Of a stretch of DNA of 45,632 bases, positions 14,918 through 21,578 are shown piece by piece. How positions within the stretch are numbered: position 1 is the first letter of the stretch; each line of letters begins with the position of its first letter. The notes beneath the pieces were generated by a model, which worked only from the letters and a program-made list of their open reading frames with translations, was not told where the DNA came from and did not search any database. This stretch comes from Vicinamibacteria bacterium. Lineage in GTDB: Bacteria; Acidobacteriota; Vicinamibacteria; Fen-336. The stretch is taken from assembly GCA_035570235.1 (NCBI GenBank), contig DATMML010000076.1, forward strand, positions 1 to 45,632, in the 5' to 3' direction. A program made the position numbers and the translations under genes.

Positions 14918-15187
14918 ATGGAACCCACGTGGCATGACGGTCTCAGCCGGACGGCGCTCGTGGAGCTCGTTGAAGGCCTGCTCTTGGCCATGGACAAAGC
15001 CGTGCCCCGTCTGGATGCGGTGGCCCACCACCTTTCGCTCATCGCGCAGCAGGGAGAGGACTTCGAGGTCCTGGGTGGCATCAGCGACCAGGTTGCTGAC
15101 ATCGGGGATGAGCTGTACTCGGCCAGTGACCGTGACAAGCTGCGTGAGTGGGGGAACCAGATCGATTCCCCGGAGAAGGCCCACTGA
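14918..15187 (+). CDS. Small uncharacterised protein upstream of rimO
   Basis: This 89-residue acidic protein (begins MEPTWHDGLSRTALVELV) is not recognised. It looks entirely helical with leucine spacing that would suit a helical bundle or coiled coil (LVELVEGLLLAMDKAVPRL), and has no membrane segment. A strong GCGAGGAGGG lies 3-8 nt before the ATG, and a TATGAT -10-like hexamer is found at 14863-14868. It diverges from the anchored uncharacterised gene and ends just before or within the start of rimO, so it may be co-transcribed with rimO. Confidence 0.62.
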   Translation: MEPTWHDGLSRTALVELVEGLLLAMDKAVPRLDAVAHHLSLIAQQGEDFEVLGGISDQVADIGDELYSASDRDKLREWGNQIDSPEKAH

Positions 15188-16596
15188 GCCAACCCCGCGA
15201 CCCCGCGAGCGGGGAGGGGAGCGAGCGCCCATCCGGGGGGGCCCCTGTTCCCGGGCTAGCGTCCGCCCGCGCCACCAAGGTGGGCCTGGTCAGCCTGGGC
15301 TGCCCCAAGAATCTGGTGGATGGGGAAGTCATGCTCGGCCGCCTGCGTGCCCGGGGCTACGAGTTGGTTCCGGACGCCCGGGAGGCGGAGGTGATCGTGG
15401 TCAACACCTGCGCCTTCATCGAGCGCGCCCGACAGGAATCGGTGGACGCAATCCTGGAAATGGCCCAGCTGAAGGAGAAGGGCAAGGCTCGGCGGCTGGT
15501 CGTCACCGGCTGCCTGGCCCAGCGCTACGACGAGGAGCTTCGCCGCGAGATTCCCGAGATCGATGCCACCCTGGGCACGGGGCAGGTGGACGACATCCTG
15601 CGCGCCGTGGAGGGCGTACCCACATCCCTAGCCGACGCCCCCGCGGGGTCGCCCGTCTGGATATACGACCACACCACTCCCCGCGTCCTCTCCACCCCCT
15701 CCTACCTGGCTTACGTGAAGATCAGCGAGGGGTGCGACTACAACTGCTCGTTCTGCATCATCCCCACCCTGCGCGGTCGGCACCGGAGCCGAACCGTGGA
15801 GGACATCGTGGCCGAGGTCCGGTCTCTGGCCGCGAGCGGGGTCAAAGAAGTCGTGCTCGTGGCCCAAGACTCCACCCGCTATGGTCTCGATCTCGGGGTG
15901 CGCGACGGTCTTGCCTACCTGCTCAGGCGCCTGGGTAGGATCGATGGCCTGCGCTGGATCCGCATCCTCTACGCTTATCCGGCGACCCTCTCCGACCCCA
16001 TCCTGGACGCCATCGCTAGCGAGGAGAAGGTGGTCAAGTACGTGGACATCCCCCTGCAGCACGCGAGCGAACCGGTCCTGAAGCGAATGAAACGGCCCAC
16101 CGGCCGCGGGAACCTGCTCGGCATGGTCGAGCGCATCCGCGCCCGGGTGCCCGGGGTGGCCATACGGACCTCCTTCATCGTGGGGTTCCCGGGGGAGACG
16201 GAGTCCGATTTCCAAGGGCTGCTCCGGTTTGTGGAGGAGGGGGAGTTCGAGAGCGTGGGCGTCTTCACCTTCTCCGACGAGGAGGGCACGACGTCTTTCG
16301 GCCTGCCCGACCGGGTCCCGCCGCGGGTCAAGGAGAGCCGGCGGCGCCGGCTGATGGCCCGGCAGAAGCGGATTTCGTCCCGGAGGAACCGGAGCCGGTT
16401 GGGGGAGCGACTCGAGGTGCTTGTGGAGGGCGTGCATCCCGAGACCGAGTTGCTCCTGCGGGGACGACTGGCCACCCAGGCCCCCGAGATCGACGGACAG
16501 GTGCTGATCAACGACGGCACCGCCGAGCCCGGCAACTTCGTGACCTGCGAGATCACCGCGACCCACGCCTACGACCTGGTGGGCCGCATCGTCTAG
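15148..16596 (+). CDS. rimO: RimO, ribosomal protein S12 methylthiotransferase
   Basis: RimO is a radical SAM enzyme that adds a methylthio group to Asp of ribosomal protein S12. The protein has the N-terminal MTTase cysteines C52 (SLGCPKN), C88 (VNTCAF) and C122 (TGCLAQRY) that hold one [4Fe-4S] cluster, the radical SAM C196-x3-C200-x2-C203 (CDYNCSFC), and a C-terminal TRAM domain. SLGCPKN and SEGCDYNCSFC point to RimO rather than MiaB. The start is uncertain: GTG 15148 overlaps the previous gene by 40 nt and gives about 40 extra Pro/Gly/Ser residues, while a CTG at 15184 or GTG at 15280 would give more usual lengths. Confidence 0.94.
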   Translation: MGEPDRFPGEGPLSQPRDPASGEGSERPSGGAPVPGLASARATKVGLVSLGCPKNLVDGEVMLGRLRARGYELVPDAREAEVIVVNTCAFIERARQESVDAILEMAQLKEKGKARRLVVTGCLAQRYDEELRREIPEIDATLGTGQVDDILRAVEGVPTSLADAPAGSPVWIYDHTTPRVLSTPSYLAYVKISEGCDYNCSFCIIPTLRGRHRSRTVEDIVAEVRSLAASGVKEVVLVAQDSTRYGLDLGVRDGLAYLLRRLGRIDGLRWIRILYAYPATLSDPILDAIASEEKVVKYVDIPLQHASEPVLKRMKRPTGRGNLLGMVERIRARVPGVAIRTSFIVGFPGETESDFQGLLRFVEEGEFESVGVFTFSDEEGTTSFGLPDRVPPRVKESRRRRLMARQKRISSRRNRSRLGERLEVLVEGVHPETELLLRGRLATQAPEIDGQVLINDGTAEPGNFVTCEITATHAYDLVGRIV

Positions 16597-16599
16597 GGC

Positions 16600-16627
16600 T
16601 TGAATACTCTCTAGCTCTTGGTATAAA
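16600..16627 (+). promoter_or_regulatory. Sigma70-type promoter of the rimP-nusA-infB operon
   Basis: TTGAAT (16600-16605) and TATAAA (16622-16627) are separated by 16 bp in an AT-rich patch just after the rimO stop codon. Transcription would begin near 16634, leaving a leader of about 84 nt before rimP that contains a strong terminator. Confidence 0.62.
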
Positions 16628-16654
16628 GTAAGTTCCAGCTCCGGGTGTTGCACC

Positions 16655-16682
16655 AGAGTGGGTTCGCCCCACTCTTTTTTTT
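16655..16682 (+). terminator. Strong intrinsic terminator in the leader of rimP-nusA-infB
   Basis: AGAGTGGG (16655-16662) pairs perfectly with CCCACTCT (16668-16675) around a 5-nt loop and is followed by an eight-base T run. A smaller upstream stem (GGTG-TTG-CACC, 16644-16654, extendable with CTC 16639-16641 to GAG 16656-16658) would compete for the first four bases of the terminator stem, an attenuator-like layout. It may act both as the rimO terminator and as a leader control for the downstream operon. Confidence 0.78.
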
Positions 16683-16717
16683 GGGGCGTCGACGGGGGCG
16701 ACCTGAGGCAGGAGGAG

Positions 16718-17176
16718 ATGGTCGAGCGGGTCAGGGCGGTCGCCGAGCGGGTGACCGGGGGGCGTGGGTTCGAGCTCACGGAGGTCGAGGTCAAGCGCGA
16801 CCGGGAGGGGCAGATCGTACGTCTCTACGTGGACAAGGAGGGCGGTATCGGCATCGCGGAACTGCAGTCCGTCTCCGAAGAGGTCTCCGCCATCCTGGAT
16901 GCGGAGGACCCCATCGCTTCCTCCTACACCCTCGAGGTGTCTTCCCCCGGCCTGGATCGGCCCTTGAAGACGGAGGCCGACTACCGGCGGTTCGCGGGCC
17001 GGCTGGCTAGGCTCTCGAGCTACGAGCCGGTGGAGGGCCGGCGTCACTGGACGGGCCGTCTGCTGGCCATAGAGGAGGGCGTGGTGAGCTTGAGCCTGGA
17101 GAAGGAGGGCGCCATAGCCCGGATCCCCTTGGCCAAGATCTCCCATGCCCGACTGGAAGTGGAATTTCCGAGATGA
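16718..17176 (+). CDS. rimP: RimP, 30S ribosome maturation factor
   Basis: RimP assists late assembly of the small ribosomal subunit. The 152-residue protein has the two family domains: an N-terminal alpha-beta part (GFELTEVEVKRD, then VRLYVDKEGGI) with the family motif VSSPGLDRPL at about residues 82-91, and a C-terminal SH3-like barrel (WTGRLLAIEEGVVSL). ATG 16718 follows AGGAGGAG directly; a start at 16658 would lie inside the terminator. It is first in the nusA operon, the standard order in bacteria. Confidence 0.94.
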   Translation: MVERVRAVAERVTGGRGFELTEVEVKRDREGQIVRLYVDKEGGIGIAELQSVSEEVSAILDAEDPIASSYTLEVSSPGLDRPLKTEADYRRFAGRLARLSSYEPVEGRRHWTGRLLAIEEGVVSLSLEKEGAIARIPLAKISHARLEVEFPR

Positions 17177-17296: not shown

Positions 17297-18832
17297 ATGG
17301 CAAATCAGCTGCGACAACAAATCGAGCAGATCAGCCGGGAGAAGAACATCAACCCGGACGTGATCATCGCCGCCATCGAAGACGCCATCCTCACCGCCTC
17401 CAAGAAGTACTACAAGAGCGCGGAGGACCTGCGCAGCCGCTTCAACAACGAGAGCGGCGTGATCGAGGTGTTCGCGGTCAAGCAGATCGTGGAAACGGTG
17501 GAGGAGCCCGATCTTCAGATCGGCCTGGAGGAAGCGCGGAAGCTGATCCCCGAGGCCGAGGTGGGGCAGGAGATCGAGTTTCCCAAGCCCACCGACATCC
17601 TGGGCCGCATCGCCGCCCAGACCGCCAAGCAGGTGATCTTCCAGAAGGTGCGGGAGGCGGAACGGGACAACGTGTTCGCCGAGTACTCGGGCCGTGTCGG
17701 CGAGGTCATCAACGGGATCATCAAGCGCCAGGAGATGGGTGACTTCATCGTGGACATGGGCCGGGCGGAGGCGGTGCTCCCCCGCAAGGAGCAGAGCCGG
17801 GCCGAGACCTACCAGACGGGGGACCGGGTGCGGGTGGCCATCGTCAAGGTCCTGAAGTCCGCCAAGGGTCCGCAGGTGGTGGTGAGCCGGACGGACCCCG
17901 CCCTCCTCATGAAGCTCTTCGAGATGGAGGTGCCGGAGATCTACGACGGCACCGTCCAGATCAAGGGCTGCGTCCGGGAAGCGGGGGAGCGGGCTAAGGT
18001 GGCGGTGATCTCCCGCGAGCGGGATGTTGACCCGGTGGGGGCCTGCGTGGGCATGAAGGGAACCCGCGTCCAGTCCATCATCCGGGAGCTGCGGGGCGAG
18101 AAGATCGACATCGTGGAGTGGAATGAGGATCCCACCACGTTCGTGATCAACGCCCTCTCGCCCGCCAAGGTGAGCCGGGTCTCCATCCTGGACGAAGAGC
18201 AGAAGATCATGGAGGTGGTGGTAGAGGACAAGCAGCTCTCCCTCGCCATCGGCAAGAAGGGTCAAAACGTTCGGCTGGCGGCCAAGATCGTGGGCTGGCG
18301 AATCGACATCAAGAGCGAGGAGGAAAAGCGCCAGGAAGTCGAGGCGGAGATGGCGCGCATGGCGCGCATCGTGGACGAGCTACGCAGCTTGGACGGGGTC
18401 GGAGAGAAGACCATTCAGAAGCTGATCGATTCGGGGGTGGCCGGCCTCAACCACCTCCTAGAGATGCCGGACGAGGAGCTCACCTCCATCGAAGGCATCG
18501 GGCCCAAGACGGCGGAGAAGATCCGCGAGTCCGCGGCGGCGGCCAAGGTCGTGTGGGACGAGCGCGACGCAGCCGCGGAGGCGGAGCGACAGGCGGCCCA
18601 GCAGGCGGCGGAGGAAGAGAGCCGTCGGCTGGCGGAAGAACAAGCGGCCCAGGAACAAGCCGCCCAGGAACTGGCGGCCAAGGAACAAGCGGCAGAGGAG
18701 CAGGCGGCCCAGGAGGCGGCGGCCGAAGAGCCGCCGGGCTCCGAGGCGGCGGCAACAGCCGCGCCGGAGCCGGAGGTCGCGCCCGCGGGTGAGAGGACGG
18801 GTCAGGGAGGGGAGTCGGATGGTCAACGTTAG
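17297..18832 (+). CDS. nusA: NusA, transcription termination/antitermination factor
   Basis: NusA binds RNA polymerase and nascent RNA, promoting pausing, hairpin-dependent termination and antitermination. The 511-residue protein has the N-terminal polymerase-binding domain (about 1-130), an S1 domain (about 134-198; [18 protein letters not shown] core), two KH domains ([14 protein letters not shown], then [13 protein letters not shown]), and one helix-hairpin-helix region (about 368-412; [20 protein letters not shown]). After about residue 420 comes a 90-residue Ala/Glu/Gln tail with repeats such as AAQEQAAQE, not part of the usual fold. It is 120 nt after rimP, and its stop overlaps the infB start by 14 nt. 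Confidence 0.97.
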
Positions 18833-21578
18833 GGTCTTCCATCTGGCGAGGGATCTGAACCTCTCCAGCCAGGAAGTCATCGAGCGCCTCAAACGCCTCG
18901 GGGTCGAGGTGAAGACCGCGTCTAGCTCCGTGGACGAAGACACCGCGGACAAGCTTAAGCGGGCCCTGAAGATCGACGCCCTGACCGCCCGCAAGAAGCG
19001 CATTTACGGCAGCGAGGAGGACGAGGCGGAGCGGGAGCTTGAGGAGCGCGAGCGGGCGGCTCGGATCGCCGCCGAACGCGCGGCCCGGGAGCAGGCAGCG
19101 GCGGAGGCCAGAGCGGCCGCGGAGGCGCGCAAGGCGGCCAAGGCGCGCGGCCACAAGGCCGAGAAGGAGACGGAGGCGGAGAAGAAGGCCAAAGGGGTGG
19201 TCGTGGAGGAGCCCCCGCCCGCCCTGCTCCACGCTCCTGGCGCGCCGCGCCTAGCCCCGAAAACCGCGGCGCCCCCTCTGCTGGAAGAGGAGGCCGAGCT
19301 CCCGGAAGCGGAGGAGGAAGCGCCGGTGAGCCCGGCCGCGCCGCCGCCGGCTCCCTCGGCGGCTGTTGCCCCCCCGCCTCCGCCCGTGCGTCCTCCGGTG
19401 GTGGCGCCGCGGGTGACCGGCCCCGTCCGCCCCATAGCACCCCCGGGGGCGCCCGCCCCACCCGCCGCCGCTCCCTTGGCGATGGGGGGGGCGGTGGCCA
19501 CGCGTCCGTCGCCCGTCGGGCCCTTGACTCCCCGCCCGGTTCGCCCCATCGCGCCCCCGCGGCCCATCGGGCCCCATCCCACGAGCCCGCACAGTATCGC
19601 CGGCGCGTCGCCCCTCCCCCGCTCGCCCCACCCGGTCGCACCAGGGCGCCCGGGCGTCACCGTGCCCCTGCGGCCCATGTCGCCGATCCCGAGCCGTCCG
19701 GCCCCCGCTCCCGCCCCGCGTCCGGTGGGACGACCCGCGCCGAAGCGGCAGGATCGTGACCGCGCCAAGAGCCAGATCGCCCCTCCCGTCCGGGAGGAGC
19801 GTCCGGTCTACACGGGGCCGCCCCGGAAGATCACCCTGACCGAAGGGGTGACCGTCAAGGAACTGGGCGAGAAGATGGAGGACGTGAAGTCGCGGGACAT
19901 CATCAAGACCCTGATCTCGCGCGGCATCATGGCCACCCTCAACCAGACCATCGAGCCCGCCCTGGCCATAGAGATCTGCAAGGAGTTCGGTTACGAGGCC
20001 TCCATCCAGTCCTTCGAGGACGAGGTCGTGCAGGTGCAGACGGTGGAGTCGAAGCCGGAGGACCTGGTCCCCCGCGCCCCCGTGATCACGGTCATGGGCC
20101 ATGTCGACCACGGCAAGACGTCGCTCCTGGACGCCATCCGGGAGACCCGGGTGGCGGCGGGCGAGGCGGGGGGCATCACCCAGCACATCGGGGCCTACCA
20201 CGTGGACGTGGGCACGCGAAAAGTGGTCTTCCTCGACACCCCCGGCCACGAGGCCTTCACCCTGATGCGGGCCCGCGGGGCCAAGGTCACCGACATAGTG
20301 GTGCTGGTGGTGGCCGCGGACGACGGGGTGATGCCGCAGACTGTGGAGGCTCTCGACCACGCCAAGGCGGCGGGTGTCCCCATCGTGGTGGCCGTCAACA
20401 AGATCGACAAACCCGAGGCCCAGCCCGACCGGGTGAAGCAGCAACTCTCCGACCGCGGCCTCATGCCCGAGGAGTGGGGGGGCACCACCGTCTTCGTGAA
20501 CGTGTCCGCCAAGAAGCGACAAAACCTGGACCAGCTCCTGGAGATGCTGCTGCTGGTGGCCGATTTGCAGGAGCTGAAGGCCAACCCCAAGAAGCCGGCG
20601 GTGGGGACGGTGCTGGAAGCGCGCCTCGACAAGGGGCGCGGCCCCGTGGCCACCATCCTCGTTCAAGACGGGCACCTCGAGGTGGGGGACACGGTGGTGG
20701 CCGGGGCGGTGGCGGGCAAGGTGCGCGCCCTCGTGGACGACCACGGGGACCGGCTCAAGTCCGCGGGCCCGGCTACCCCCGTCGAGGTCCTGGGCCTGGC
20801 CGCGCTGCCCGAGCCGGGTGACCAATTCCTGGTGGTGACAGACAACCTGAAGGCGCAGTCCATCGTGGCCTTCCGGCAGCTCAAGCTCCGGGAGAAGGCC
20901 ATGTCCGCCTCCTCCAAGATCAAGCTGGAGGACCTGGGCCGGGCCATCGCAGAGGGTCAGCTCAAGGAGCTGCCCCTGGTGGTCAAGGCCGACGTCCAGG
21001 GTTCGGTGGAGGCGGTCACCGACCAGCTCATGAAGATCCCGCAGGAGAAGATCAAGCTGCGGATCATCCGCTCCGGAGCGGGCGCGATCACGGAGGGCGA
21101 CGTGCTTCTGGCCGCCGCCTCCAACGCGGTGGTCATTGGTTTCAGCGTGCGTCCGGAGCGCAAGGCCGCCGAAGCCGCGGAGCGGGACAAGGTCGAGGTG
21201 CGGCTGTACACCGTGATCTACGACGCGGTGGAGGACATGCGCAAGGCCTTGGAGGGCCTGTTGGAACCCACCCTCCGCGAGGTGCGCCTGGGCTCAGCCG
21301 AGGTCCGGGAGGCCTTCCGCATCTCCAAGGTCGGGACGGTGGCGGGCTGCTTCGTGGTGGACGGAAGGGTGAACCGCAACGCGCAGGTCCGCCTGCTGCG
21401 CGACAACGTCGTCATCCACACCGGCAAGGTCTCCTCCCTGAAGCGATTCAAGGACGACGCGGCCGAGGTGAAGGCCGGCCTCGAGTGCGGCATCGGGATC
21501 GCCAACTACAACGACATCAAACCCGGGGACGTGATCGAGTTCTTCACCACCGAGAAGGTGAAGGAGACCCTGGAGTAG
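18819..21578 (+). CDS. infB: InfB, translation initiation factor IF-2
   Basis: IF-2 is the GTPase that brings initiator tRNA to the 30S subunit and promotes 70S formation. The 919-residue protein has an N-terminal IF2_N domain ([17 protein letters not shown]), an Ala/Glu then long Pro/Ala-rich linker (about 75-330), a second IF2_N (about 337-395), and the GTPase: GHVDHGKT (427-434), DTPGHEAF (from 473) and NKID (from 527), followed by domains II to IV. ATG 18819 is chosen because the family N terminus starts there and GGGAGGGGAG precedes it; it lies 14 nt inside nusA. The long proline linker has no stop codon interruption. Confidence 0.98.

Follow-up and report, generated by a model that had tools for sequence, protein, structure and literature searches.

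A conserved leader terminator of the rimP-leader type ahead of the rimP-nusA-infB operon in an Acidobacteriota genome

The analysed window is a stretch of 45,632 nucleotides, one contig of a 5.7-Mb draft genome, and the named genomes closest to it are metagenome assemblies from the Acidobacteriota, several of them labelled Vicinamibacteria. Its forward strand carries rimO, rimP, nusA and infB. The rimO open reading frame (15148-16596, stop codon at 16594-16596, start codon uncertain), which contains the Pfam domains UPF0004, Radical_SAM and TRAM_2, lies just 5' of the leader considered here, on the same strand as rimP. The latter gene, with the Pfam domains RimP_N and DUF150_C, extends to 17176 and, according to an alignment of starts, begins either at a CTG codon at 16703 or at an ATG at 16718. 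The open reading frame of nusA occupies positions 17297-18832, and relatives of it were found by tblastn; infB was assigned to 18819-21578, with a putative start within an open reading frame spanning 18789-21578, its identity being based on sequence and operon order. No tRNA genes were found in the window, nor in the Acidobacteriota loci scanned.

The region upstream of rimP contains an intrinsic terminator (16655-16682, forward strand), made up of the hairpin AGAGTGGG-TTCGC-CCCACTCT at 16655-16675, in which the arms 16655-16662 and 16668-16675 form eight perfect pairs around the loop 16663-16667, and of eight T at 16675-16682, the leading T being the partner of A16655 in the stem. About 20-35 nt separate the T run from the start of rimP. 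The run is the only one of at least 7 T or A in the whole 45.6-kb window, and a hairpin with T tract comparable to this one occurred in none of 200 dinucleotide shuffles of the entire window; the leader fold is also more stable than those of shuffled sequences (z -2.5). The hairpin is not a chance pattern, and the perfect 8-bp terminator with eight T, which a preliminary description had placed before rimP-nusA-infB, is indeed present. A strict pattern (GTGGG-N3..10-CCCAC-NN-TTTT), searched in the 5.7-Mb genome, found a single match.

A promoter had likewise been proposed ahead of the terminator. The -35-like hexamer TTGAAT (16600-16605) and the -10-like hexamer TATAAA (16622-16627), both on the forward strand and separated by a 16-nt spacer, predict a transcription start at about 16633-16635. 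The pair was missed by a stock promoter scan, because the scan demands a T at the end of the second hexamer. Comparison with other leaders supported the proposal: the best -10-like box exceeds the threshold in 93% of 96 Acidobacteriota leaders, against 7% of shuffles, and starts 36-41 nt ahead of GTGGG, a nearly fixed spacing, in 76 of the 96. In the window the distance is 36 nt, and the hairpin therefore begins some 20 nt into the predicted transcript; the terminator would thus sit inside the leader, unless the predicted promoter is unused.

Conservation of the structure, which had been suggested as a check, is extensive. The 12 family members read, the window included, all have a hairpin with the same core before rimP, and hairpins of the same kind are found before rimP widely in Acidobacteriota, Bdellovibrionota and Desulfobacterota; most Burkholderia leaders lack such a hairpin. 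Not only the pairing of the stem but also its sequence is conserved. A search of 193 genomes from the class with the strict GTGGG..CCCAC motif gave 86 matches, 69 of which (in 69 genomes) lie before rimP, while a reversed control pattern gave 16 matches. Of the 17 matches away from rimP, three genomes account for 12, and the sites retrieved from these genomes are palindromes. Since a search by exact motif is circular with respect to the conservation of GTGGG, a sequence-blind scan was added, which accepted hairpins of whatever sequence, provided that they had at least 7 bp and a T tract. It detected a terminator in 46 of 61 distinct Acidobacteriota leaders, 43 of these 46 with GGG on the 5' side and CCC on the 3' side of the stem and one with the reverse arrangement, and in 27 of 50 leaders from other phyla, with GGG/CCC in 26 and the reverse in 4; these counts do not represent independent events, because many of the rows are related. 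In most of the Acidobacteriota leaders examined, the leader terminator forms part of a compact promoter-plus-terminator module, present close to once per genome.

The gene content upstream of rimP bears on the role of the hairpin, which could merely end rimO, while rimP-nusA-infB would depend on a different start or on read-through for its transcription. Such an account is suggested by the distance of 59 nt between the end of rimO and the hairpin, both on one strand, and by the many relatives in which rimO precedes rimP. However, the hairpin is kept behind other same-strand genes (for a sensor kinase in L010, for a tannase in L007), and also where the upstream gene is divergent and cannot need the terminator, encoding a FTR1 permease (L059, L075), a member of the beta-lactamase family (L064), HlyD (L063) or a cytochrome (L091). 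In addition, the -10 box lies just 5' of the hairpin at a nearly fixed distance. A function as terminator of rimO only is ruled out by those loci whose upstream gene is unrelated or divergent, and for the window this account appears very improbable. Since the hairpin persists whatever the upstream gene and the spacing from the -10 box is nearly fixed, it belongs to the leader of rimP-nusA-infB, as originally proposed for the NusA operon. It may, in the window, also stop rimO transcripts or read-through from rimO.

The element very likely belongs to rimP-nusA-infB as its rimP-leader attenuator, a type that Naville and Gautheret (2010; Genome Biol 11:R97, PMC2965389) described as more ubiquitous than any other transcription attenuator in their survey. 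The rimP-leader is described there as a GGGc..gCCC terminator, located 4-130 nt from the gene start before rimP-nusA-infB, in its general form without a visible antiterminator, and with NusA as the best effector candidate (PMC2965389). The window element lies before the same operon, within the same 4-130 nt and near the start codon, and shares the intrinsic terminator, whose 5' and 3' arms carry GGG and CCC, respectively, ahead of a U stretch; in the window this is a GGG/CCC core followed by T8. It differs in the c and g closing the loop, which do not form a pair in the window (GGG-UUCGC-CCC); most relatives, unlike the window, have GGGC..GCCC. A further difference may be an upstream pairing specific to the window's family. 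It is a genuine and deeply conserved control element, here found in an Acidobacteriota genome, and its type is known from many bacteria. Although the leader is that of the same operon, the Rfam covariance model for rimP (RF01770, 102 positions) gave no match in the window, either at the gathering threshold or at E up to 5, and a search of 30 relatives at E up to 1 likewise gave none. The Acidobacteriota form escapes this model.

The operon of E. coli, said in the preliminary description to be controlled differently, has the hairpin GGGC-TTTAG-GCCC followed by T7 just before rimP (also PMC2965389), besides metY and another upstream terminator. The contrast is therefore only partly right: metY and the extra terminator are found there and no tRNA gene here, but the same hairpin stands directly before rimP in E. 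coli.

At a probability of roughly 0.75, the window element would serve for rimP-leader attenuation of rimP-nusA-infB through NusA-stimulated termination, no antiterminator being needed. RNA polymerase would start near 16634 and transcribe about 20 nt; the GUGGG/CCCAC hairpin and the U tract would then form, and some polymerases would terminate there. NusA bound to the polymerase would, by analogy with other bacteria, aid the folding of the hairpin, so that high NusA would lead to more termination and less nusA mRNA, and low NusA to read-through. This feedback had already been proposed for the rimP-leader, and hence is not new; it is probably the best mechanism and has published precedents (PMC2965389, PMC4448216, PMC12288461).

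In B. subtilis NusA is autoregulated via NusA-stimulated intrinsic termination in its own 5' leader (reviewed in PMC12288461). The window similarly has an intrinsic terminator between a promoter, with predicted start site, and the operon; stimulation by NusA was shown by experiment in B. subtilis, whereas it is presumed for the window. In the RimP-NusA-IF2 operon of Streptococcus agalactiae (gbs0413-gbs0418), the terminator is found 31 nt after the start site and NusA feedback was suggested (PMC4448216). The terminator is very close to the start site in both cases, the start and the end of the S. agalactiae leader having been mapped by RNA-seq, while those of the window are predicted from sequence. 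A feedback by NusA via termination as an old and general circuit fits the spread of the hairpin over Acidobacteriota, Bdellovibrionota and Desulfobacterota.

With a strong 8-bp hairpin and a good U tract, termination might be efficient even when NusA is absent. Work in B. subtilis is said to indicate that NusA matters most at weak terminators. The near-invariant GUGGG/CCCAC stem raises the question of whether a protein recognises its sequence or just the hairpin. The effector might be another product, for example RimP, or a protein reading GUGGG/CCCAC, rather than NusA as a general termination factor, which would agree with a stem conserved in its sequence and not in pairing alone; RimP was raised as a possible effector in PMC2965389. 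On the other hand, NusA is reported to act on the rimP-nusA-infB operon in E. coli, in older work as cited in PMC2965389, and on its own operon in B. subtilis (PMC12288461), and an effector other than NusA is considered very unlikely.

A competing stem upstream of the terminator, reported along with it, can form at 16634-16662 on the forward strand, according to folding and energies, and is largely kept in the family without covariation. UCCA (16634-16637) pairs with UGGG (16659-16662) and CUC (16639-16641) with GAG (16656-16658), around a core in which GGUG (16644-16647) pairs with CACC (16651-16654) across a TTG loop; the 3' arm of this stem shares positions with the 5' arm of the terminator. 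The pairing might constitute an antiterminator switch, in which UCCA-N-CUC at the RNA 5' end pairs with GAGUGGG of the terminator 5' arm and a signal picks the fold. It is, in fact, the best fold before the 3' arm of the terminator is made. The main helix is paired in 88% of cells in the 12 family members, against 31-54% for slid structures, the first value (88.4%) referring to the main helix alone and the controls to the whole structure, inclusive of one pair of a spurious second helix. However, not a single pair of the competing helix is changed on both sides in the 12 members, and just two upstream pairs survive in the automatic consensus fold, neither of them with covariation. The finished terminator fold, within which the small GGUG/CACC stem is still in place, is also more stable than the competing fold (-16.5 kcal/mol versus -11.0 kcal/mol, the latter for RNA up to the loop), and the switch is regarded as unlikely.

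In other families, GTGGG is not generally occluded while the 3' arm is still to be made. The antiterminator was rejected as a general feature, because neither covariation nor a consistent excess of pairing was detected across families. What holds of the original proposal is that the stem can form; a regulatory antiterminator role was not upheld, the stem being weaker, devoid of covariation and not common to other families. In the window's family an antiterminator is possible.

A small hairpin adjoining the rimP terminator was observed in family f5 (L019, L029, L182, L184, L186-L195), in the form GGAG..CTCC or, in sister genera, TCTGG..CCAGA: the sequences differ and the pairing is kept. An adjacent stem thus recurs, varying in sequence and in overlap with the terminator.

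The position of the first rimP codon is occupied by CTG in the window (16703-16705) and in L004, L005, L006, L007, L010 and L012; the other family members have ATG (L003, L011), GTG (L002, L008) or TTG (L009). A GGAG directly follows the T tract, and CTG is usually found 7-9 nt after it. Since L004 and L007 have no in-frame ATG, GTG or TTG before the conserved block, rimP may start at CUG in the family. Judged from the alignment, a conserved CUG start is possible, and the ATG at 16718 remains as an alternative start in the window. That the family leader combines a real antiterminator (5'-end UCCA-N-CUC with GAGUGGG) with a CUG start of rimP seems hardly probable; if both were true, two limits would act on the NusA operon, termination and the weakness of a start codon that is sensitive to initiation factors.

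Two minor observations concern other genomes. In the family f8 genomes L203, L204 and L205, the GTGGG..CCCAC pattern turns up outside the rimP region, at palindromic sites where it is read on either strand; these may be dispersed repeats or else terminators acting in both directions. A tRNA-Gly(CCC) gene is located just 5' of the rimP leader hairpin at three loci from deltaproteobacteria (L109, 3202-3277; L110, 2979-3054; L111, 3197-3272), of which two are Desulfobulbaceae-type, an arrangement which recalls metY before rimP in E. coli.
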